From a virus: a DNA stretch of 28,769 nucleotides. Of the stretch, positions 8,094-27,099 are shown in pieces (the first letter of the stretch is position 1; each line of letters opens with the position of its first letter). The stretch covers positions 1-28,769 of the IMG/VR virus record IMGVR_UViG_3300043431_000254. The stretch is one strand, 5' to 3'. The position numbers were made by a program, and so were the translations under genes. The notes under the pieces were generated by a model that did not search any database, was not told the origin of the DNA, and saw only the letters and a list, made by a program, of their open reading frames with translations.

Positions 8094-10241
8094 TCAATCA
8101 CTAGAAGAGTCGGCCAACCCCTTCTCGCGTTCTGCATAGTGGGCGGTGCGCTGCTGCTCGGCGGCGACATCGGCCTGCTCCTGCTTGATCGCTGCATCCT
8201 GCGCGTGGGACTCGCGCTTCATCTGCATCTCCTGTTGGAAGGCTTCCCACTTCATCGCCATCTCTTCGCGCATCTTCTGGAGTTCCATCGCATTCCGCTC
8301 GCGGTCTGCTTCCAGCTCGGCCTGCAACTTGACCAGTTCACCCTGACCGTCTTCCTGCGCGATGGCTTGCGCTTCGACGGTCTCTTTTTGTGTACGTGCA
8401 CCCTTGAGACCGGCGTCCGCAGTCTTGTCGCCCACCTCGGCTTCGACCTTCGCCACGGTGGCTTCGAGGTTCCGCATCTCCAGATCAGCTCTCTTCTGCG
8501 CCTCGGGGCTGTTCGCAACGGCCTGCATTTTCTTGATGATCTCGGAACGACGCATCAAGCGACTGTTCTCAATCAGCACCTCGTCGGGGATCGCAATACC
8601 TTCCTTGCGCATACCCAGTGCCTGCTCGAACTGGCTGTCTTCCATCGAAGCGCGGTACGGCGTGCTGACGATCACGATGTTGTACTCACCCAGCGTCAGG
8701 TCGTTGATGATCTCGCCGGTCGTCGGATCGGGCTGGTTGATCGCCACCTCTTCAGTTTCACGCGTCACGTCGTCGTGCGTGATGTGAATAATCCGTTCCT
8801 CGGTGTAGTAACCCTGCACGATGTCCAACACGTTCCGCGCAAGAATGAAGTCCGTGCGTTCGAGGTTATCAATCGACTTCGTGTGGCTGACCGAACCGCG
8901 CTGCTGCTTGTAGGCGATGGCCTTCGCCGCCACGTCCTCGCGGTCGTTACCCTGCATGCTGTCCGTGACGTTACTGATCGTCTTCATGGACTCTTCGGCC
9001 TTGTACGACAGGCGGTCGAGTCCGGTGGGGGTCTGGTTCGGCTGGATCTTCTCAGCCGCGCTGATGTCGTCCAGCTCCATGACGAGGCCGGTGCGTGCGC
9101 CGTTCGCCTCCAGTTCCTCGATGCTCATGTTGCGCAGCGAGCCGGTCTTCACCTTCCAGCCGCTGTTCGCTGTCGTGTTGACGACGTGCAGCTCCTGACT
9201 GGTGGTCTTGTTCAGCAGCTCCTGCGGGCCAAGCAGGTGTTCAACGAGGCCCGTGGTGGTGCCATAGCGGAAGCGGGGGAAGTACGGCACGACGGTCAGG
9301 TGCTTGTACGGCGACCAGTCGTCGTGCAGCACCACGTTGTCGCCAGTAACAGTCCACCGGATACGCTTCACCTGCTTGTTGATCACGTTGATCGTGTTCC
9401 CGGCGCGTTCCAGCACCGAGGCGATCTTGTTCCGATCCCAAGCGTCAGGCACCGGGCGCATGTCGCCGTGCACCACGTCGACAAAGTGCTTCTGCATGGT
9501 CAGCTTGCGGTACTGGCGCTCGATGGTGCGGATGTTGCGCCGTACACCGGCCTCGTCACTGATGCCGTAGTAACTACCCTGCAAAGCTGAACCGGAGAAC
9601 CGGTCACGCACGCGCTCAATCGAGTCGTAGGCATACGGGAACATGGCTGAGTCACGATCACGCAGGTACTCCGCGTCTTCGTCGCCGTACAGCATGGCAA
9701 TGTCTTGGAAGGTCAACCACTTCGTGACGAACACGTCGTTCCACAGGTCAGGGTCGTATTCCTCGGCGTCAGGGTCAATGACGCAGTTCTTACTGTTCAA
9801 CTGGGAGATCCGAACCTCGCCCTGCATGGCGTCGTTGAAGTCCAGACGCACGTCGAAGAATCCCCGACTACGTACGAGGCCGTCAGAGAACACCTCCGAG
9901 CGTACCCACGGCAGCTGGTTGTTCTGCGCGATCTGCATCCAGACCTTCGTCAACGCCTCGGCAGTGGGTGCCTTCGCCCCGGCCGCTGGACGGAACAAGA
10001 CCTCGTTCCGGTTCTGGATCTGATCACCTTCGAGGGTGCTAAGCGTGGACTGGATCTTGTTGATCGTCAGGGCCGGCCTGCGCTGGAGCTGAAGCGCGAA
10101 GAGATCAGCGCTTTCCCACTGATCTCCCTTGACGAACTTGTCACATTTGTCAGCCTTCGTAAGGAAGTCGTAGTGGCCGCGCTCCAGACAATACCGGAAG
10201 CGATACCACTGTTCTGATGCTAGGGAGTCGTTGACTGGCAT
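8094..10241 (-). CDS. Portal protein, P22 type (715 aa)
   Basis: The portal forms the dodecameric ring at the capsid vertex through which DNA is packaged and ejected. The N-terminal part (ERGHYDFLTKADKCDKFVKG, PALTINKIQSTLSTLEGDQI, RPAAG) is typical of P22-like portals, as are VWMQIAQNN, the FFDVRLDF wing segment and DPDAEEYDP. The middle has YFPRFRYGTTTGLVEHLLGP. The last ~120 residues are a long charged helix with Glu/Lys/Ala repeats, matching the barrel/crown helix of long P22-type portals. GAGG is 9 nt before the ATG. A promoter-like core lies in the 39-bp gap upstream. A 57-bp gap separates it from the scaffold gene. Confidence 0.88.
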   Translation of the reverse strand: MPVNDSLASEQWYRFRYCLERGHYDFLTKADKCDKFVKGDQWESADLFALQLQRRPALTINKIQSTLSTLEGDQIQNRNEVLFRPAAGAKAPTAEALTKVWMQIAQNNQLPWVRSEVFSDGLVRSRGFFDVRLDFNDAMQGEVRISQLNSKNCVIDPDAEEYDPDLWNDVFVTKWLTFQDIAMLYGDEDAEYLRDRDSAMFPYAYDSIERVRDRFSGSALQGSYYGISDEAGVRRNIRTIERQYRKLTMQKHFVDVVHGDMRPVPDAWDRNKIASVLERAGNTINVINKQVKRIRWTVTGDNVVLHDDWSPYKHLTVVPYFPRFRYGTTTGLVEHLLGPQELLNKTTSQELHVVNTTANSGWKVKTGSLRNMSIEELEANGARTGLVMELDDISAAEKIQPNQTPTGLDRLSYKAEESMKTISNVTDSMQGNDREDVAAKAIAYKQQRGSVSHTKSIDNLERTDFILARNVLDIVQGYYTEERIIHITHDDVTRETEEVAINQPDPTTGEIINDLTLGEYNIVIVSTPYRASMEDSQFEQALGMRKEGIAIPDEVLIENSRLMRRSEIIKKMQAVANSPEAQKRADLEMRNLEATVAKVEAEVGDKTADAGLKGARTQKETVEAQAIAQEDGQGELVKLQAELEADRERNAMELQKMREEMAMKWEAFQQEMQMKRESHAQDAAIKQEQADVAAEQQRTAHYAEREKGLADSSSD

Positions 10242-10280: not shown

Positions 10281-12308
10281 CTATTCGAAGACCAAAAAGC
10301 TACCCCGGCCGAAACCGACCAGCCCTGTAGCGTCCTCGACACCCAGTGTGTTGCCGTACACCGTGAGGAAGTGCGTGTGAATCGCCTCTTTCGTCAACAC
10401 CCGTACGGCGGCGTCGTCGGCCGCACCGGTGAGGTTGTTCAGCAGGCTGTCGAACAGGCCGATGAACAGGCGGGCGTCTTGAGCGCGAGCTGTATACGTG
10501 TTGGCAGGGTATTTTACAGAGTCGTACGCAGTCTGATCAGGTGTCCACACTAGCTCATCCTTTACGTCGTTCGCCAACGTGAGCGCGGACTGCATGTGAT
10601 AGTTCACCCGCGTCGGCGTTAACTCCGTGCCGTCAATCAACATCAAGCTGAGTGAGGTGAAACCCGGTTCGATGAACCGAGCGGCGAAGTACTTGCCGAG
10701 GTCAGAGGCCAGCTGAAGGGAGAAGAAACTTGCGGTGTTTGAGGATTCTCTTTCAAAGGCGAAAATTTCTTTCTCGTCATCAGAGTGCGTCATTAAAAAA
10801 TGCTCTTCGTTTTTTTCAAACGAAATAAGATAGTCCTGCGGGTGATTGTTGAAAGTAATGTTTTGCGTCCATGTTCCTTTAACTCCAAGGTACAAATAGA
10901 CGGGGTTTTGTTTTACCCACACACTACCAGCGTAAGCCACACCGTTAATAGTGGCGACAGATGAGTTCGCCAACATGTCGTTTTCAACTGTAAACGGCCC
11001 GGTACTCCACACAATCGGCTTGATTTCAGCAGGCGGTGCGGGTGAGGCAGACCATTGTGAATAAGGCACCTGAACACCGTTCAGCGTGTATACGTACTCG
11101 CTTCCTGTGGCGTCCATGATTCTGCTATGAGCGACAACCTCTTCTTTGCGATATTTATAATTGAGAACGCCTGCACTGCGAATCTCTTCGCTATATGTGG
11201 TTTGTTGAGCAGAACTCACGGTGCTACCAAAACCAGTGGAGTACAGGCGTTCTGAATAATACAACTCAGTTCCCATCCAGGTAGCCGCGCCTGTCATATC
11301 ACGAATGTTTACTACGAACCAACCTGTTTTTTCACTATAGGTCGCCGTCGTCGTCGTCGATGAGTTTAACCCTGATCCAGAGCTTGTTGTTTGGTTTGTT
11401 ACCGGAACGGTAGCCACAAACCTGTATTGAGAACCCTGCACATGGAAATTCCCCAACAACATATCGGCGTCTACAGACAGAGTCTTCGTTGCTGCTGTTT
11501 TTGCGTACAGCCGCGACGCTTCATAAAGCAAGTTGACTTTGCCTTCAAACAATCCAAAGTCGTTTACAAATCCTCTTACCGTTGCCCGCGCTTGAGGGTA
11601 TATAAAGCTGTTGTTCGGTGTAAATGAAACAAGCTGCGGTGTCACAGAGTCTTTCAGTTCAATTTTCCACACAAACCCCATCTCGTCTGTGACGGTTGTC
11701 AGTCCACCCTCAACCCCTTGAACTTCAAAACTGAATTCCTGCTCGACAGTCAAATAGCCGGTGAGTTCACCACCCAACTTTGCACCAGGAATCTCAACTG
11801 ACCTTTGGACAGTGCCTGTATCGTTCGTTGCGATAGCTATGAATTCAAGTTTTTCGCCTTGCACGAGCGCCACACATCGCACGCCCAAATCAAAATCCAT
11901 CGTGTTGCCGCTCATGAGTCCTAACGACTTGTATACAGCTATGTTCAAATAAGCTGAACAATTTCCTTTCGCCGCGTTCTTCACCACGCGGGCGAGAGTC
12001 TTCCTCAGTGCGCGCTGTGACGTGGCACGCGGAGTCTTGAACCCTGGCTCCATGAAGACACCTGACAGCGTCATCTGACCGGCGCGTGCTGCGAGCAGCG
12101 GGGCGACAGGCATCAGGATCACGCGACCCTTGTCGTGCGCCGTCAACACCGTCACGTAGAGCGTGCCCATCCGACTGAACGGCACCGAGGTCTTCGCCGG
12201 GTACTTCTTCCCCCTGTGCAGCCGATCTATCGCGTGCTTGCCGAGCGCCAGCGCCAGCCCCAGCTCGTCCTCATCCCAGCCGTCCTCGGCGTCGTAGACG
12301 AACTTCAT
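10281..12308 (-). CDS. Large virion-associated protein between terminase and portal (675 aa)
   Basis: I know no named family. I start at ATG 12308, which overlaps the terminase stop (ATGA); the longer frame upstream is terminase shadow. The N-terminal ~115 residues are charged and helical. The centre, about 106-525, is Thr/Ser/Asn/Tyr-rich and beta-like (TTATYSEKTGWFVVNIRDM). The C-terminal ~140 residues are more helical. The central DNA (about 10735-11990) is visibly more AT-rich than either flank and than neighbouring genes, suggesting an exchanged cassette. An FMEPGF motif at 85-90 recurs as FIEPGF at 545-550. The composition suits a structural or host-contact protein, but the location between terL and portal is unusual for a tail fibre. 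Function is unknown. Confidence 0.7.
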   Translation of the reverse strand: MKFVYDAEDGWDEDELGLALALGKHAIDRLHRGKKYPAKTSVPFSRMGTLYVTVLTAHDKGRVILMPVAPLLAARAGQMTLSGVFMEPGFKTPRATSQRALRKTLARVVKNAAKGNCSAYLNIAVYKSLGLMSGNTMDFDLGVRCVALVQGEKLEFIAIATNDTGTVQRSVEIPGAKLGGELTGYLTVEQEFSFEVQGVEGGLTTVTDEMGFVWKIELKDSVTPQLVSFTPNNSFIYPQARATVRGFVNDFGLFEGKVNLLYEASRLYAKTAATKTLSVDADMLLGNFHVQGSQYRFVATVPVTNQTTSSGSGLNSSTTTTATYSEKTGWFVVNIRDMTGAATWMGTELYYSERLYSTGFGSTVSSAQQTTYSEEIRSAGVLNYKYRKEEVVAHSRIMDATGSEYVYTLNGVQVPYSQWSASPAPPAEIKPIVWSTGPFTVENDMLANSSVATINGVAYAGSVWVKQNPVYLYLGVKGTWTQNITFNNHPQDYLISFEKNEEHFLMTHSDDEKEIFAFERESSNTASFFSLQLASDLGKYFAARFIEPGFTSLSLMLIDGTELTPTRVNYHMQSALTLANDVKDELVWTPDQTAYDSVKYPANTYTARAQDARLFIGLFDSLLNNLTGAADDAAVRVLTKEAIHTHFLTVYGNTLGVEDATGLVGFGRGSFLVFE

Positions 12309-14062
12309 GCCGCCATGTGGCTCACGCCACCATCGTGTATCATCCCCGGCAGCTTGTCCTTCCAGCTCTTGAACGGCTTCTCTTCGGACTTCTTCGGCGC
12401 GGACTTCATCAGGACGAGGCGTACCAGCCACGCCAGCGCGTCCACCTGGTCGTCGTGCTTCCCGCCAGAGCCGAAGCGCAGCATCTCAGCCCGCAGCGCG
12501 TCCCACCAGCCCGCCCGCTCGTTGAACCAGACCTTGCCGCTCTGCATGCGGCCCTTGAGCGGCTGGGCGCGGACGAACTTGTCCGTGAACGGCTTCAACA
12601 CCTCGTACGACGGGTAGAGCTTCCGCTCCTGACAGCGCCGCAGGAATACCGCTTCGACCGACTTCCAGATCTGCCCGTCCTCAAAGCCGAGCAGGGCGCT
12701 CGAACCGTGAGCTTCCCAGTTGTCGAGAATTGCATCCGCAATAATGAACGCGTCGTCCGACCGGAAGCGCACAATGTCCACCACGTGCAGGTTGTCGTTC
12801 GTATCCAGATAGCCCGTCGCTCCGACCGTGTAGTCCGCCGCAGCTTTCTCCGTGATGGCGAAGTCCCAAGTCTGGTAGACCGCGCGCTCACTCTTGTGCG
12901 GCTCGGTGGTGTAGAAGCGGAACAACCCCTTCGTGAAGTACGCACCCTCTGCGGGCGTCGGGTTCTGCTGGTAGAGCGCCGCCCACCAGCGCTGCTGACC
13001 GAGCGCGTAGTACGTCGCCCGCCGTTTCATCAACGACTCGTACGTGTACCGCTCAGGGTGCAACGCCGAGTTCATCACCCGTGTCATCCGCGCGTCTTCA
13101 GGGATGTCCGAACCGGGCGGCAACTGCGTGATCGAGTCGTCCGCAAGAATGTACTCGTCACCCTCGTCGTTGATGGCGGGGTATTTAACCACTTCGAACT
13201 TATCCCCGTCGTCCATCGTGTTCAGCATCTGCAACCGGCCGGCGAGGTCGTCTTCGTTCCACCACGTCATGATCACCAGCACACCACCACCGGGCGCAAG
13301 CCGTGACAGAGCCGTCGAGATGTACCACTCCCACACGTTGTCACGGATCACCTGCGAGTCCGCCGCCTCGGCATCCTTCACCGGGTCGTCGATGAGCAGG
13401 ATATGTGCACCCCGCCCGGTGATCATCGTGCCGACACCCGCCGCGAGGTAGCCTCCACCAGCCGTTGTGTTCCAGTTTTCGACCGACTGACTCGATGGAT
13501 CGAGCTGAGTCTGCGGGAACAGAGCGCGGTAGCTGTCATCCCGTATCAGGTCGCGCTGATAGCGCGAAAACGATGTGGCGAGGGACTGTGCACCTGACGC
13601 GGCGATGATTTCCCACTCCGGGTGCTGCCCCAACACCCACGGCGGGAAGTTCCGGCTGGCGATCTCGCTCTTGCCCATCCGTACCGGCATGCAGAGCAGC
13701 AACCGAGGCTCTTCCCTGGCCTCCACGCGGGCCACAAACCGCTCCAGACGCCGGCAAATGTCTTTGTGCACCCAGCCCGCCTCGTACTTCGGCCGAAAGC
13801 GCTGAATGAAGGCCAGCAGACCGCGTCGACAACGCACCCGGTTCGCCATTTCCTTCGCGGTCGGGGCTTTGTAGTCAATTTCTGCACACACCGGGACGAA
13901 ATTATCGCCCGACATGCTGCCAGCAGACGGGATTGGGCCAATTTCCTCTTCAGGAGCCTCTACGGGTGCATTTTCACACTCTGTGCACACCGTGGCGCTG
14001 GACATCGGGAAGTCGAGCGTCGATTTTTCCTCTTTGCAGACCGTGCAGCGTTTACTGGACAC
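12305..14062 (-). CDS. terL: Terminase large subunit (585 aa, GTG start)
   Basis: This is the ATP-driven packaging motor and nuclease. The ATPase part has a Walker A-like PVRMGKS at about 126-132 and a Walker B LLIDDP at about 222-227, then VLVIMTWWNEDD (motif III region). The nuclease half begins with TWDFAITEKAAADYTVGA, has a DGQIWKSVEA stretch, and ends with the metal-binding HDDQVDALAW near residue 540. I prefer GTG 14062, 11 nt inside terS, with GAGG upstream. From this start an N-terminal zinc-ribbon-like pair (CTVC ... CTEC, residues 6-29) is included. An upstream ATG at 14119 would add 19 Arg-rich residues that look like terS shadow. The stop overlaps the next gene. Confidence 0.9.
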   Translation of the reverse strand: MSSKRCTVCKEEKSTLDFPMSSATVCTECENAPVEAPEEEIGPIPSAGSMSGDNFVPVCAEIDYKAPTAKEMANRVRCRRGLLAFIQRFRPKYEAGWVHKDICRRLERFVARVEAREEPRLLLCMPVRMGKSEIASRNFPPWVLGQHPEWEIIAASGAQSLATSFSRYQRDLIRDDSYRALFPQTQLDPSSQSVENWNTTAGGGYLAAGVGTMITGRGAHILLIDDPVKDAEAADSQVIRDNVWEWYISTALSRLAPGGGVLVIMTWWNEDDLAGRLQMLNTMDDGDKFEVVKYPAINDEGDEYILADDSITQLPPGSDIPEDARMTRVMNSALHPERYTYESLMKRRATYYALGQQRWWAALYQQNPTPAEGAYFTKGLFRFYTTEPHKSERAVYQTWDFAITEKAAADYTVGATGYLDTNDNLHVVDIVRFRSDDAFIIADAILDNWEAHGSSALLGFEDGQIWKSVEAVFLRRCQERKLYPSYEVLKPFTDKFVRAQPLKGRMQSGKVWFNERAGWWDALRAEMLRFGSGGKHDDQVDALAWLVRLVLMKSAPKKSEEKPFKSWKDKLPGMIHDGGVSHMAA

Positions 14063-14510
14063 GCGTCGCCTCGCCCTCAATGACACGGCCTTCCTCGATG
14101 GCGAGCAGTTCCTCGTCACTCAGGGCTTCGAACTTCGCCCGCAGACGCCCTTGCGCCATACTCAGCTCGATCTTCTTCACTTCCGGGGCGTAGTGACCGA
14201 GGATTTTGCCCACTTCCGTCCAACCCTTGATCACCTGAGCCGCATCACCCTGCGTGCGGGCCATTTCGATACCGTCCATCACCCCCTCAATCACGTCGAG
14301 GCGCTTGATCTGCGTGGTATCGGTCAACCAGCGCCGTGCCGCAGCGAGCTGTTCACGGATCGTCGATGAATGGACGAAGCCCGACGCGTTGACGGAGCCG
14401 GCAGCGGCAGCTGCCTGCGTATCATTTGCCCCTTCGAGCTTCGCTTCGACGAACTTTTCCTGTTTTTCGGTGAGCTTCGAGCGTGGACGACTCTTCTTGG
14501 TGACAGCCAT
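14052..14510 (-). CDS. terS: Terminase small subunit (152 aa)
   Basis: The N-terminus is basic (KKSRPRSKLTEKQEKFVEA), followed by ANDTQAAAAAGSVNASGF, the helix-turn-helix pattern of Terminase_2/P27-like small subunits that recognise the packaging site. A helical oligomerisation region follows, with WTEVGKILGHYAPEVKKIEL, and then an acidic C-terminus. It is the first gene of the late arm and overlaps terL by 11 nt. A GGAG lies unusually far (13 nt) from the ATG, so initiation may be modest. A TATAATCTAA promoter-like core sits 29 nt upstream of the start. Confidence 0.85.
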   Translation of the reverse strand: MAVTKKSRPRSKLTEKQEKFVEAKLEGANDTQAAAAAGSVNASGFVHSSTIREQLAAARRWLTDTTQIKRLDVIEGVMDGIEMARTQGDAAQVIKGWTEVGKILGHYAPEVKKIELSMAQGRLRAKFEALSDEELLAIEEGRVIEGEATRVQ

Positions 14511-16481: not shown

Positions 16482-16486
16482 CCACG

Positions 16487-16510: not shown

Positions 16511-16722
16511 AGTTCGTCCTCCAACGACTATGGGACGGTGTACAACGGTCGATTTTAGATGAGAAACGTTCGCAATAACGTTTGTTTACTATGCGGTTGT
16601 CCTATGCGCATGTATTTCGAAAACCTCTACGTATGGTTTTCTCTATGTTTTGTAAGTCGTTGATTTTACTGGGTTCAGTGTACGACATACGCATGACCTC
16701 GGTCGAAGCCCTCAAAAACGTC
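16511..16722. other. AT-rich non-coding stretch with inverted repeats
   Basis: No supported gene. Two clean inverted repeats are present: AAACGTT-6 nt-AACGTTT (16564-16583) and GAAAACC-9 nt-GGTTTTC (16619-16641). The base composition becomes AT-rich relative to the genes on either side. It leads directly into the GTTCCA repeat cluster and is probably part of the same control or replication locus. Confidence 0.5.
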
Positions 16723-17074
16723 AAAAGTGGAACAGCGAAACCCTGATCTGGCCTGGGTTGTTCCAGTTTAACCACTTGTTCCAGTTTCTAAAACTTAGCC
16801 CACAGTATGCATGTGCTTAGGTGCTTTTGCATTCTTTCTATTCTCCTATATATCTTATTTTCTGGAACAAATGGAACAAATAGATAGAAAAAGCCTGTAG
16901 AAGCCCTATTTAAGCCACGTATACCGATGTTCCACTTTTGTTCCACTTTTGTTCCAAAGAACCCCGTTTGTACCACTTTTAACGTATACAAATAAGATTC
17001 GCTTGCGTTCACGCTTGAATGCGATCTAAGATGCTCGTCCCGTAGTCTCGAAATTCCGGAACAAACTGGAACAA
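16723..17074. repeat. Iteron cluster GTTCCA/TGGAAC: candidate replication origin
   Basis: About eleven copies of a GTTCCA core occur in 350 bp in both orientations. TTGTTCCAGTTT occurs at 16758 and 16776 (18 bp apart). TGTTCCACTTT starts at 16928, TTGTTCCACTTT at 16938, and a third core begins about 11 bp later; a one-mismatch copy TTGTACCACTTT starts at 16968. In the other orientation are AAAAGTGGAACAG (16723), paired GGAACAAA copies at 16864-16880, and a pair at 17058-17074 just before the primase start. AT-rich DNA lies among them. Directly repeated sites beside a replication gene are typical of iteron origins; autorepression of the primase gene is an alternative or additional role. Confidence 0.65.
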
Positions 17075-17080
17075 CGCACC

Positions 17081-19516
17081 ATGACAAAAATCACGTTTTT
17101 GGGTGGCAAAAGTCACCTCGTCAAGACGATCTACATGCACAAGGGCAAGATCGACGTACGTCCTTATCCGAACGTCCTCAACTTCACGTCGTACGAAGAA
17201 CAATGTGCGACGCTCAAAGAACTGCATACGGCGATCGTCGCACACAGCAAGCTAGGACACTGCTTGTTGAAAGGCATCATCAAAGCTCCGTTGAAGGATG
17301 AATCGCGTGCTGGTAGCACCACGACCGAAGACCTGACCGACTGGATGTGTCTCGACCTGGACAAGGCACCCTTCAGCAAGGTGAGCGACCTGATGGACAA
17401 TCACCCGCTGCTCAAGGATGTGAGCTACATCGTGCAATACAGTGCGAGCCACGGACTGCCAGGTCGTCCAAAGAACACCATCAGCTGTCACGTGTTCATG
17501 CTGCTCGATGGCAAAGTGCGTGCGCCCTACCTCAAGGCGTGGCTGATGCAGCAGAACCTTGACGGCAAGTTCATGAACGGTGAGATCCGTCGTGCTATCA
17601 CCCTGACTGAACACAAGTCAGCACTGCACTATCCAATCGACGCCACGGCGTGTCAGAACGACAAGCTGCTGTTCATTGCGCCACCTGTGGTCAAAGACAA
17701 CATCAAGTATGTGCAAGAGCCGATCAGCTACGTTGCGAAGCCCCTGGGTGCGATGCCCGTAGAACGGGTAACGAAGAGCAACCTTGAACTCTGGAAGAAG
17801 GAAGCACTGGTTGTACGCAATGAGCTGCGCAAGCAGGAAGGGCTTGATCCGATCAACACCAAGACACGGATCATCGACGGCTTCGAAGTGCAGAAGCTCG
17901 ACGGTGAGTTCGTCATCACTGGTGGGCCGCGTGAAGACAACGGCTTTGTCCGCTTCAACTTCAATGACGGTGACTCATGGGCCTATTACCATCCGGTCGG
18001 CAACTTCGAATACATCCACTCGTTCAAGCAGGAGCCGAGCTACAAGACCAAAGAAATCCTGCCGGGGTACTACAAGCAATGTCAGCTGGCGCGCAAGCGT
18101 GAACAGTTGACGCCCACGGAGGAAGGCAATCAGATCCTCGCCATCTGTGACAAGCGCTCTGGTGCATATCACAAGGTGGCGTGGAACGCAGCTGAGCAAG
18201 AATTGCAGATGTACCCGGCCAGCTCGGACAAGCAGTTGAACGACTGGCTCCTGAGCCACAACAAGTTCGCTCAAGAGTTCGTCCCGCAATGGGATCTGGA
18301 ATTCAACCCGCAGAACGAGATCATCTGTGATGTGGCGAGCAACTACCTCAACACCTATGTACCAAGTCCGTGGTCAAGACTCAAGCGCACACCGAACATC
18401 GAAGCAATCAACAAGTGCCCAACCATCAAGCGCATCCTTGCTCACGTGCTGAGTGAAGGTAAGTGGAACGACGTTACGGATCACTTCATCAACTGGCTGG
18501 CATGCATCATCCAATATCGTGTCAAGACAGGCACGGCGTGGGTGCTGCACGGCACTGAGGGCACCGGTAAAGGCGTGCTGGTCAACACCATCATTCGCAA
18601 GCTGGTGGGTCATGAGTATGTAGTCTCCATGACTCAACGGGCGTTGGAAAATCAATTCAACGGCTACATCGAACGCGCCCTGGTTGTCTTGTTCGACGAG
18701 ATGGAGATCAACGCCTCGATGAACAAGGCTATGACCTCCGGTGAACTGCGTGACTGGATCACTGAAGAATATGTGCCGATCAGGCACATGCGCATGGCGC
18801 ACTACTCAGCGTTGAACTTCGCAAACTTCATCTTCGCTTCAAACAAGGAAGGGCCGGTGCAGATCAACGACCATGACCGGCGCTACAACATTGCAGAGTA
18901 TCAGAAGAACAAGATCGTCATTACTGAAAAAGACATTCGCACCTTGATCCCGGCAGAGCTGGGTCACTTCTACGACTACCTGATGGCGTACAACGCCGAC
19001 CGTGAACGTGCTCGCAAGGTGATTCATACGAAGGCACGGCGCGAAGTGATCGTGGCGAACCGCAACAGCGTCGACATGATGACCGAGGCGCTGCTCGATG
19101 GTGACATTGAACCCTATGTCGAAGTCCTGCCCGACATGCAAGTGCTAGCTGAGCTGCACGGTACAGGAACGAACAGCACACTTGCACTGTCCTACAGCAA
19201 CATCATTTCACGGGAAATGGAAGGGCTGCTCAAGTCCAAACAGACAAACCGTGAAGGCAACACAGTCTTCGAATCAAAACTCACCCGTGATGAACTGTGG
19301 GTGCTGCTGGAGTATTCAGTCGGAGGCATGCCTGTCTCACCGGCCAAGCTCACTCGGCTGCTTAAACACAAGCACATCGAAACCAAGCGCATGCGTGCTG
19401 CTAACGGTGATATGGCTTACGGTATCACTGTACGTTGGGTGGCCACGAAGGACTGGATCAAGGATCACACCGTCGTTGCTTCAAACAAAGTAGTGCCTAT
19501 CAGAAGGAAAGCATAA
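17081..19516 (+). CDS. Primase-helicase: AEP primase domain plus SF3-like helicase (811 aa)
   Basis: The N-terminal part looks like an archaeo-eukaryotic primase: WMCLDLDK with DLD at 92-94 as the metal-binding pair, followed by SCH at 135-137 in the ISCHVFMLLDG strand. The C-terminal half is a DUF5906/SF3-type ATPase with Walker A GTEGTGKG (491-498), Walker B VVLFDE (535-540) and a NFIFASNKEGP sensor-like segment. Together these would prime and unwind DNA at the phage origin. The ATG overlaps the end of the iteron cluster; GGAAC of the last repeat is the only ribosome-site-like element, so binding there could also block translation. It is the first gene of the rightward replication arm and is separated by 15 nt from the next gene. 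Confidence 0.85.
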   Translation: MTKITFLGGKSHLVKTIYMHKGKIDVRPYPNVLNFTSYEEQCATLKELHTAIVAHSKLGHCLLKGIIKAPLKDESRAGSTTTEDLTDWMCLDLDKAPFSKVSDLMDNHPLLKDVSYIVQYSASHGLPGRPKNTISCHVFMLLDGKVRAPYLKAWLMQQNLDGKFMNGEIRRAITLTEHKSALHYPIDATACQNDKLLFIAPPVVKDNIKYVQEPISYVAKPLGAMPVERVTKSNLELWKKEALVVRNELRKQEGLDPINTKTRIIDGFEVQKLDGEFVITGGPREDNGFVRFNFNDGDSWAYYHPVGNFEYIHSFKQEPSYKTKEILPGYYKQCQLARKREQLTPTEEGNQILAICDKRSGAYHKVAWNAAEQELQMYPASSDKQLNDWLLSHNKFAQEFVPQWDLEFNPQNEIICDVASNYLNTYVPSPWSRLKRTPNIEAINKCPTIKRILAHVLSEGKWNDVTDHFINWLACIIQYRVKTGTAWVLHGTEGTGKGVLVNTIIRKLVGHEYVVSMTQRALENQFNGYIERALVVLFDEMEINASMNKAMTSGELRDWITEEYVPIRHMRMAHYSALNFANFIFASNKEGPVQINDHDRRYNIAEYQKNKIVITEKDIRTLIPAELGHFYDYLMAYNADRERARKVIHTKARREVIVANRNSVDMMTEALLDGDIEPYVEVLPDMQVLAELHGTGTNSTLALSYSNIISREMEGLLKSKQTNREGNTVFESKLTRDELWVLLEYSVGGMPVSPAKLTRLLKHKHIETKRMRAANGDMAYGITVRWVATKDWIKDHTVVASNKVVPIRRKA

Positions 19517-23481: not shown

Positions 23482-23594
23482 TGCTCGGCGCACGACGGAT
23501 CAGCAAGAAACAGTTCTACGCTCGCGGCGGCTTTGCCGCACCGCGCCAGTACCGCAAGATGCGGGGCCGCGCATGGACATATTGGGAGTTTTGA
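23481..23594 (+). CDS. Tiny conserved basic phage protein (37 aa)
   Basis: The pattern RRISKKQFYARGGFAAPRQYRK-to-WTYWEF (RKxFYxxGGFxxPRxxRK...WxYW) recurs, to my recollection, in many phages as a protein of 35-45 residues of unknown function. It is strongly basic and aromatic. TAATG overlap with the gene before and 1 nt gap to the DHH gene after support translation. It has no clear ribosome site of its own apart from GAAGA. Confidence 0.6.
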   Translation: MLGARRISKKQFYARGGFAAPRQYRKMRGRAWTYWEF

Positions 23595-23595
23595 C

Positions 23596-24516
23596 ATGAA
23601 ACCACTCGTGATTTACCACGCCGACTGCACAGACGGCTTCGGTGCGGCGTTCGCCGCTTGGCTCAAGCTGGGCGACGAGGCTGAGTATGTGCCTTGTCAA
23701 TACGGCGAATACCTGAGCAAACAGCAGATTGATTTTGCTGACCGTGAAATCTACATCCTTGACTTCAGCTTTCCCAAAGACGCTATGGACGTGCTTTTCA
23801 CTCAAGCCAAGCGCGTCGTGTGGCTCGACCATCACAAGACGGCGTTCGAGATGTGGTGCGGCAAGTACGAAAAAGGCTGTACTTACACCGAGAAGAGCTA
23901 CCAAGGGCTTCACTGTATTTTGCTCAATGACAACAAGTCCGGCGCAATGCTGGCGTGGGAATACTTCCACCCCGGCACTTCAGTGCCAATGCTGATCCAG
24001 CACATCGACGACCGCGACCGCTGGCAGTTCAAGATCGAGGGCAGCAAGGAACTGCACGCATATCTCGCATCAGTAAAACCGTGGAGTTTCAAAACATGGC
24101 GCGTTTACTGTAATGCCGTACACAGTATCGACCATGTTTATTTTAGTGAGGGAGAAGCCATCCTCCGCGCTCAAGACGCCCACGTGAAGGGCATGTGCGA
24201 GCAGGCACGGAAGTGCGTAATACTCGCCAAAGGCACAAAGGAGCTGATGGATTTACACCACGGAAGGTGCTTGTTTCCCGGCCTCGCCGTCAACGCAACC
24301 ATTCACATGTCGGAGGTAGGCCATGAACTCGCCAACAGTAGCGGAACTTTTGGATTGGTCTACTACATTGGGGCCGACAACAAAGTCAAGTGCTCCCTCC
24401 GCTCCAACGGAGACTATGACGTCTCTGCTATGGCAAGGGCGTTCGGTGGTGGAGGCCATCGAAATGCTGCGGGCTTTGAAACGGATGTCGAAACGCTGAT
24501 GAGATGGCTGAAATGA
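23596..24516 (+). CDS. DHH-family phosphoesterase (306 aa)
   Basis: A DHH/DHHA1 phosphoesterase. The N-terminal HADCTDGFGAA (residues 8-18) and ILDFSF (D56) supply metal ligands, followed by VVWLDHHKT with DHH at 78-80. The HIDDRDRWQF segment is another conserved element. The C-terminal GGGGHRNAAGF (284-294) is the substrate-binding DHHA1 signature. Family members cut phosphodiester or phosphoanhydride bonds in small nucleotides (for example nanoRNA or c-di-AMP) or ssDNA (RecJ). In this replication setting I favour nucleotide or oligonucleotide turnover. I start at ATG 23596, just past the previous stop; the ribosome site is weak. Length is normal for the family. Confidence 0.85.
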   Translation: MKPLVIYHADCTDGFGAAFAAWLKLGDEAEYVPCQYGEYLSKQQIDFADREIYILDFSFPKDAMDVLFTQAKRVVWLDHHKTAFEMWCGKYEKGCTYTEKSYQGLHCILLNDNKSGAMLAWEYFHPGTSVPMLIQHIDDRDRWQFKIEGSKELHAYLASVKPWSFKTWRVYCNAVHSIDHVYFSEGEAILRAQDAHVKGMCEQARKCVILAKGTKELMDLHHGRCLFPGLAVNATIHMSEVGHELANSSGTFGLVYYIGADNKVKCSLRSNGDYDVSAMARAFGGGGHRNAAGFETDVETLMRWLK

Positions 24517-25744: not shown

Positions 25745-27099
25745 TCAAGCTCTTTGCTCATCAAAAAGTCTCGGTCGCTTTTGTCGACAAAAACCACCGC
25801 GTCTTTGACATGAGCGATGCCGGCACGGGCAAGACAGGTGTTCATGTCACAGCCTTTGCCAAGCGTCGCCGCATCAAAGGTGGCTGCGCACTGATCCTGG
25901 CACCGAAGTCACTGCTGTCGAACGCATGGGGTCAAGATTTCAAAAAGTTCGCCCCGGACATGAAGATCAGCATCGCGCACGCAACAAACCGCAAGCAAGC
26001 GTTGGCTGCAAATGCTGATGTGTACATTACCAATCATGATGCGGTGAAAGTACTCACTACTCTACCTGAGAATTTCTGGAAGAAGTTCGACACGATCATC
26101 ATCGACGAATCAACCGCTTTCAAGCACGGCACTTCGGCACGTTCGAAGAGTGCAGCCAAAATCGTGAAGCGCTTCGCACGGCGTGCGTGCCTCTCAGCTA
26201 CACCCAGTTCGAACGGGGTCACAAACATCTGGCATCAAATGTTCCTGCTCGATGATGGCAAACGTCTTGGCAAGAGTTTCTTCGCCTTCCGCGCCGCCGT
26301 GTGTTCACCCGTGCAAGTCGGCATGAGTCCGAACATGGTGCGCTGGGAAGACAAAGGCAACTCCGAAGCGATCGTCTCAGCCATCATCAAAGACATAACG
26401 ATCCGGCACAGATTCAAAGACTGTGTGGACATTCCACCGAATCACGAGTACCCAGTCAACTTCGAACTGAATACCAAGCATCGGAAGATCTATAAAGAAC
26501 TCGAAACAAACAGCATGCTGCTGTTCAAAAATAACAGGGTAGTGTCGGCGGTTAACGCCGCCGTGCTTTACAACAAGCTGTTGCAAGTCAGCTCGGGTGC
26601 TGTTTACTCATCTGATCGCGATTACGAAATCATTGATCGCGACCGGTATGAGCTGGTGATCGACCTAGCTGAAGCCCGGCCACACGTCGTAGTGTTCTTC
26701 CGCTGGGCACACCAGAAAGAATGCCTGATCGCAGAAGCGAAAAAGCGCGACTTAACCTACACATTGATTGACGGCAGCGTGACCTCAGACAAGCAGCGTG
26801 AAGACGCCGTCAAGCACTTCCAGGCCGGCTTCTATCGCATCCTGTTCGCGCACCCACAGAGCGCAGGCCACGGTCTTACCTTGACCAAGGGCACCGCAAC
26901 GATATGGGCTTCACCCACACCAGACCTTGAGCATTACCTGCAAGGTCTGAAACGCATCCATCGCATAGGTCAGACGCAGAAAACGGAAACGATCATGGTA
27001 TTGGCACCAGACACCATTGAAGAGCGCGTCTATGAATCACTGCTGGCGAAAGATGCAAAGATGGCCTCGCTGCTCGACTATCTCAAGAAAGCTGCGTGA
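25741..27099 (+). CDS. SNF2-type DEAD/DEAH helicase (452 aa)
   Basis: A compact SF2/SNF2 helicase. Motif I is DAGTGKT (26-32), motif Ia LAPKSLLSNAW, motif II DEST (122-125) and motif III SATP (152-155). The second lobe has VVFFRWAHQKE (motif IV region), an AHPQSAGHGLTL stretch (motif V) and RIHRIGQ (405-411, motif VI). Such phage enzymes translocate on dsDNA and may remodel replication or recombination intermediates. The ATGA overlap with the nuclease gene suggests the two products act together, as in end-processing helicase-nuclease pairs. Length is typical for phage SNF2 proteins. Confidence 0.88.
   Translation: MIKLFAHQKVSVAFVDKNHRVFDMSDAGTGKTGVHVTAFAKRRRIKGGCALILAPKSLLSNAWGQDFKKFAPDMKISIAHATNRKQALAANADVYITNHDAVKVLTTLPENFWKKFDTIIIDESTAFKHGTSARSKSAAKIVKRFARRACLSATPSSNGVTNIWHQMFLLDDGKRLGKSFFAFRAAVCSPVQVGMSPNMVRWEDKGNSEAIVSAIIKDITIRHRFKDCVDIPPNHEYPVNFELNTKHRKIYKELETNSMLLFKNNRVVSAVNAAVLYNKLLQVSSGAVYSSDRDYEIIDRDRYELVIDLAEARPHVVVFFRWAHQKECLIAEAKKRDLTYTLIDGSVTSDKQREDAVKHFQAGFYRILFAHPQSAGHGLTLTKGTATIWASPTPDLEHYLQGLKRIHRIGQTQKTETIMVLAPDTIEERVYESLLAKDAKMASLLDYLKKAA

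Follow-up and report, generated by a model that had tools for sequence, protein, structure and literature searches.

The 28,769 nucleotides (28.8 kb) of DNA that we analyzed (hereafter, the window) are part of the genome of an uncultivated podovirus. It encodes a P22-type portal and a large terminase (Table 1). After the terminase comes a rightward replication block, with a primase-helicase of 811 amino acids, a PD-(D/E)XK nuclease, and a SNF2-type helicase. The block also includes a predicted DHH phosphoesterase (phrog_4771, DHHA1; 23533-24516), which is 5' of the nuclease and the SNF2-type helicase. The gene order of PD-(D/E)XK nuclease and then SNF2-type helicase is shared with Pseudomonas phage KPP25. 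From the end of a small gene (near 16482) to the start of the primase-helicase there are about 600 bases of non-coding DNA, with no accepted open reading frame, and this region contains an array of short repeats.

Within 353 bp, GTTCCA or its complement TGGAAC is found exactly nine times (five forward and four reverse, between 16728 and 17072), and two more copies are degenerate (GTACCA at 16970 and CGGAACA at 17057). These add up to the "about eleven" cores that were reported in the initial annotation of this DNA, which relied on the sequence alone. The overlapping word GGAACA or TGTTCC has 10 copies in the same array. The extended repeat TTGTTCCA(C/G)TTT has exact copies at 16758, 16776, and 16938 on the forward strand and at 17063-17074 on the reverse strand, with near copies at 16927 and 16968, and the annotated spacings (18 and 11 bp) and the presence of both orientations were correct. 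The region was described as AT-rich and non-coding, and indeed its GC content is 34-47% across 16801-17100 (with a minimum of 0.34-0.38 across 16801-17000), compared to 55% for the whole window. The last iteron (17067-17072) was said to end 6 nt before the start codon of the primase-helicase at 17081, which holds if the trailing AA is counted as part of the repeat; otherwise the distance is 8 nt.

Repeats this dense are not expected by chance. The most common 7-mer in the array has 9 copies in 353 nt, while the maximum was 5 copies in 100 dinucleotide shuffles of the window and 4 copies in 500 shuffles of the local region. Similarly, the best 6-mer has 10 copies in the array versus 6 in the shuffles. 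Iteron origins have short repeats that cluster beyond chance in non-coding DNA, along with an AT-rich unwinding element, and both are present here.

Table 1. Features of the window and arrays or boxes in related phages. Coordinates are those of the window unless another genome is named.
Feature	Coordinates	Strand	Remark
P22-type portal	8094-10241	-	
Terminase (large)	12305-14119	-	
CTATGGGAC element 5' of the array	16528..16536	+	Only CTATGGG in the window
IHF-type site AATCAACGACTTA	16653..16665	-	Exact match to WATCAANNNNTTR, the only one in the window
Outer reverse iteron (CAAAAGTGGAACA)	16722..16734	-	
Forward iteron TTGTTCCAGTTT	16758..16769	+	
Forward iteron TTGTTCCAGTTT	16776..16787	+	
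Presumed DNA-unwinding element	16788..16862	.	AT/pyrimidine-rich tract, with forward iterons on one side and reverse iterons on the other
Core of the AT/pyrimidine-rich tract, cattctttctattctcctatatatcttattttc	16830-16862		
Two reverse iterons, TGGAACAAATGGAACA	16863..16878	-	
Three forward iterons (ATGTTCCACTTTTGTTCCACTTTTGTTCCAAAG)	16927..16959	+	11-bp spacing
Degenerate forward iteron TTGTACCACTTT	16968..16979	+	
Two reverse iterons (CGGAACA, AAACTGGAACAA)	17057..17074	-	Second core is 8 nt from the primase ATG
Primase-helicase	17081..19516	+	PF19263 (DUF5906); NrS-1-type PrimPol-helicase, presumed initiator
C-terminal domain of the primase-helicase	19154..19516	+	Residues 692-811; predicted winged-helix-like, presumed iteron-binding
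Wing hairpin	19376..19426	+	Residues 766-782; 768, 770, 772, and 780 covary with the iteron
KPP25, first array	~26395-26826		
KPP25, second array	58258-58543		L175 10259-10544
G013, second array	37464-37765		
G011, second array	26438-26750		
G009, second array	50467-50640		
L140, DnaA boxes	-3124..-3073		Relative to the primase start
L069, DnaA boxes	-5078..-5013		Relative to the primase start

Besides its match to PF19263, the primase-helicase has just one strong match to a solved structure, the helicase region of the NrS-1 polymerase (E = 7e-34). Its SF3 helicase domain is homologous to the NrS-1 CTR, as in an NrS-1-type PrimPol-helicase, and the structure model also includes the N-terminal domain, the putative primase-polymerase. 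When the structure model was compared to known structures with Foldseek, the helicase's top hit was again the NrS-1 CTR, and SaPI5 PriRep1 was further down. The C-terminal domain was modelled with high scores (pLDDT of 91 on its own and 93 in the full model). It is predicted to contain helices at residues 736-746 and 754-763, followed by a beta hairpin, or wing, formed by residues 769-772 and 778-788. The fold matches of this domain are weak: they include the NrS-1 Tail (best Z of 3.3) and RepE54-iteron complexes, and the origin-binding domain of phage P4 (1ka8) is a marginal match (E = 1.8).

Searches with primase peptide patterns or with megablast found no near relatives of the window. We gathered relatives from IMG/VR, GTDB contigs, and phage records, first via the terminase and then via an alignment of primases, which gave 98 distinct relatives (counting the window). 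Among isolated phages, the primase-helicase is 35% identical to those of the Pseudomonas phages KPP25, phiR18, CRPAP1904, and YMC17/07/R4900a, and is more distantly related to that of Aeromonas phage phiA008. About 40 of the roughly 98 relatives have the window's architecture 5' of a homologous PrimPol-helicase gene. The typical order is forward iterons, an AT/pyrimidine-rich tract, reverse iterons, and then forward iterons again. In about 30 relatives, the cluster of 7-mers directly 5' of the gene was larger than in 60/60 or 59/60 shuffles. Iteron words and orientations were assigned by the analyst from the consensus of each cluster, oriented on the pyrimidine-rich strand. Most of the words belong to one family, xTTyCz (GTTCCA, GTTCCG, CTTCCA, GTTACA, GTTACG, CTTACA, CTTACG, and GTTTCA), with CTAGCA, GTACCG, and CTTCTA as further variants. 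Of 40 relatives, 23 (the window among them) have their AT-richest 60-mer exactly between a forward and a reverse iteron. The span from the forward to the reverse iteron is 86 nt in the window (median 87 nt, interquartile range 82-96), and the distance from the reverse to the next forward iteron is 56 nt (family median 50 nt). The closest relative (L144, whose primase is 52% identical) keeps the GTTCCA word, the layout with the AT tract, and the IHF site.

The array is not always next to the primase gene. In nine relatives (L034, L090, L105, L116, L124, L140, L153, L072, and L069), it is about 1-5 kb 5' of the gene, behind other genes. About half of the relatives have no array within the ~6 kb upstream that we searched, and two complete genomes, phiA008 and G020, have no clear array; the AT-richest intergenic region of phiA008 has the IHF consensus and no clear iterons. 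The conservation that the initial annotation proposed to look for holds for the architecture, including in the nearest relative, and does not extend to every relative or to a fixed distance.

KPP25 lacks repeats next to its primase gene and at first seemed to be a counterexample, which we dropped once arrays were found elsewhere in its genome. It has two arrays of TGTTACGA, half a genome apart, and no other places in the 64-kb genome are as AT-rich. One is 12 kb upstream of the primase gene and the second is among structural genes. The first array is also found in KPP25's three relatives. (KPP25 also has 16 copies of a 9-bp tandem repeat of the CAGCCCAGC type, at 29984-30127, L174, but this is coding, within ORF036, and is unrelated to the origin arrays.) More broadly, in most of 20 complete relatives from IMG/VR, the array ranks first or second in the genome for AT content. 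G009, G011, and G013 clearly have a second array with the same word, and G005, G006, G007, and G016 probably do, while G001, which is close to the window, has one array only. The second arrays are about a third to half a genome from the first and are partly among structural genes. They could be second origins or crr-like elements. As the window is an incomplete genome, its phage might have a second array as well.

Many of the array regions contain sites for host factors. The IHF consensus WATCAANNNNTTR has 21 matches in 19 of 38 array regions, usually as AATCAANNACTTA, versus about 1.5 matches expected (at most 6 in 200 shuffles), and the reversed pattern has no matches in these 38 regions. 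The window's IHF site is placed similarly to that of L144. Perfect DnaA boxes (TTATCCACA) lie inside the arrays of just two phages (three boxes in L140 and four in L069), which suggests that some members of the group depend on the host's DnaA.

Another element, CTAYGGG(0-2)RC, is found on one strand (the forward strand in the window) in 13 of 43 array-flanking regions and on the other strand in none of them (about 1 expected). It precedes the first iteron, usually by tens of bases and never by more than ~200 bp. Besides the window, it is present in L056, L019, L032, L034, L029, L110, L089, L099, L145, L144, L077, and L069. As a sequence, CTAYGGG(R)C resembles the start site of a phage RNA polymerase (ACTATGGGA). 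A search for a phage RNA polymerase that might read it (PF00940) gave no match, but the controls gave none either, so absence is not established. Separately, a CTCTGAC / GTCTAA-type tract is found just 5' of the primase start in the window (17020-17055) and recurs ~30-60 nt ahead of the ATG in L144, L145, L056, L018, and L072; perhaps it is a conserved promoter.

The array might instead be an operator, bound by the primase-helicase or a small repressor to regulate transcription of the replication operon, with replication not starting there. In the window, the array does fill the promoter region, and the last iteron is similarly close to the ATG in L144 and L015. However, many relatives have other genes between the array and the primase gene, and KPP25's arrays are 12 kb away or among structural genes. 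Also, an operator has no need of IHF sites, DnaA boxes, or an AT-rich tract flanked by opposed iterons, all of which are features of origins. Because the array is 1-12 kb from the primase gene in some phages, and has second copies in several, it is not just an operator, and we consider this explanation to be unlikely.

To see which protein might read the iterons, we compared 727 columns of the primase alignment to the iteron base at each position, across 29 phages. For position 4 of the iteron (C, A, or T), the top column is residue 770, which is K or R in 16/16 phages with C and in none of those with A or T; residues 780 and 768 are in third and fifth place. L069 and L146 are exceptions to this rule (Q770 with C). 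For position 1, the top column is residue 772, which is W in 6/6 phages with C and is K or R (or S) with G. For position 6 (A/G), none of the 727 columns is a clear partner. The window has R770 and R772, which predict C at position 4 and G at position 1, as found. Arrays that were located after the rule was fixed also obey it (5/5: L029, L067, L077, L110, and L106).

We also looked for a correlation with iteron distance in each of 789 segments of 17 residues. The correlation peaks at residues 766-782 (rho = -0.35) and is absent elsewhere in the protein (+0.10). Finally, we built a tree without the 766-782 region and compared the closest pairs that differ at 770 or 772. (L092 was left out because the orientation of its iterons is ambiguous.) These contrasts were concordant with the change in the iteron in 17/19 cases for residue 770 and in 12/12 cases for residue 772, with about 9 independent changes for each. 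This is the pattern expected of direct base reading, in which K or R would contact the G of a G-C pair.

Another phage protein, such as a small basic protein from the same operon, might bind the iterons, and the covariation with the primase's tail could reflect coevolution or shared ancestry. The lack of a partner for position 6 would fit with this. But the correlation is found in just one wing segment of 17 residues and nowhere else in the protein, it makes chemical sense (K/R opposite G-C pairs), and it recurs in about 9 independent changes, so a different binder seems very unlikely. Less likely still is a site for partition (centromere-like), packaging, or recombination, bound by the primase-helicase or another phage protein. 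Iteron arrays serve as centromeres too, and some relatives have second copies half a genome away. However, the covariation is with the C-terminus of the primase-helicase and not with the rest of that protein, and we saw no constant placement of the array with respect to the terminase.

Overall, we think it likely that the region at 16.5-17.08 kb is the podovirus's replication origin and that the adjacent primase-helicase is the initiator, with iteron binding by its C-terminal domain. An iteron-type origin beside the primase-helicase was the central proposal of the initial annotation, and both the conserved architecture in relatives and the covariation support it. The outcome named there as refuting, close relatives that keep the primase but lack the repeats, was not seen, and even for KPP25 an array turned up upstream. 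Of the candidate binders that were suggested (the primase's N-terminus or the small basic proteins), the primase is favored, but via the wing domain at its C-terminus and not via the N-terminus. GC skew, which had also been suggested as a check, does not mark the array as the origin; we dropped it because switches of the coding strand seem to dominate its extremes.

Judging from these sequences, the primase-helicase most likely reads the iteron words and opens the DNA there. We infer binding, melting, the use of IHF, and the start of replication at the array, as follows. Several copies of the primase-helicase would bind the GTTCCA iterons via the winged-helix-like domain, with wing residues 770 and 772 reading iteron positions 4 and 1. 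The opposed iterons flank an AT/pyrimidine-rich tract of ~85 bp, so two oligomers could assemble face to face, and host IHF might bend the DNA at its site and help bring them together. The SF3 helicase ring would melt the AT tract and encircle it, with the first primers laid by the fused PrimPol domain. The last iterons, beside the primase ATG, may let the initiator damp its own expression, the autoregulation that was first annotated as a possibility.

We lean towards extending this view to the large podovirus clade that comprises the Kochitakasuvirus KPP25 and its metagenomic relatives. In this clade, a PrimPol-helicase would be the initiator, with residues 770, 772, and 780 setting the iteron bases; the word would have switched repeatedly, apparently in steps of a single base and a single residue; several genomes would have two origins, separated by about a third to a half of the genome; and the NrS-1-type Tail domain would gain a function. 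If this is true, then the replication start and the initiator are identified for a group that includes the isolated Pseudomonas phages KPP25 and CRPAP1904, which are of therapeutic interest and whose initiator genes are annotated as hypothetical. It would also provide a testable protein-DNA recognition code for iteron origins and a model for how an initiator and its origin change together. More speculatively, by analogy to the PLE iterons and ICP1's Odn, a case of an origin-targeting nuclease (PMC8263062), diversified origin words may let related phages escape each other or such nucleases.

Of the known systems, the closest overall are P4 alpha with ori-crr and the SaPI/PICI rep-ori, both described below; no earlier account of the window's type of origin turned up among open-licence papers. 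The NrS-1 PrimPol is the closest solved relative of the helicase part of the window's protein, and the C-terminal domain has the NrS-1 Tail as one of its best matches, weak as these are. The 8-nt recognition sequence of NrS-1 occurs just twice, its Tail was reported as a novel fold with no assigned role in reading DNA, and sequence recognition was reported as unexplained (PMC7102993). If our interpretation is true, then the C-terminal domain of NrS-1-type PrimPols has a likely role. Unlike in the window, we found no iteron array upstream of the NrS-1 polymerase gene.

The origins of iteron plasmids (RepE/mini-F, RK2, and RepA) also combine iterons with an AT-rich DUE, IHF, and sometimes DnaA boxes, and RepE54-iteron complexes were among the weak fold matches. 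Such plasmids differ in that their Rep proteins, which are not known to be helicases, recruit the host's DnaB, and in that their repeats are longer (about 17-22 bp) and mostly share one orientation.

In the rep-ori module of SaPIs and other PICIs, an AT-rich melting region sits between two iteron sets (PMC6092414), and the helicase's C-terminal domain recognizes the iterons (PMC7581432). The window similarly has a (presumed) primase-helicase initiator and two sets of iterons around an AT-rich region, and SaPI5 PriRep1 is among the structural matches. However, PICI origins are 3' of rep, while the window's array is 5' of the gene; in relatives, the array can be up to 12 kb from the gene, and some genomes have a second array. 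Also, the window's protein is of the NrS-1 type (DUF5906) and serves a phage of 60-70 kb, the IHF consensus is built in, and, unlike a satellite, the window carries its own portal and large terminase. Because the array is 5' of the gene and belongs to a full phage, it is not a PICI module.

Phage P4's alpha protein combines primase, helicase, and C-terminal winged-helix origin-binding activities, and acts with ori1/ori2 and crr. P4's iterons are short, TGTTCACC-like, and found in more than one cis region. Two replicons have been reported for P4, according to titles cited in PMC6092414. Our searches detected no sequence homology to P4 alpha, but the two systems share a primase-helicase fusion, C-terminal origin binding (presumed, for the window), and short iterons, which in some relatives of the window also lie in more than one cis region. 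We conclude that the window's array probably works like the SaPI/PICI rep-ori and phage P4 alpha.
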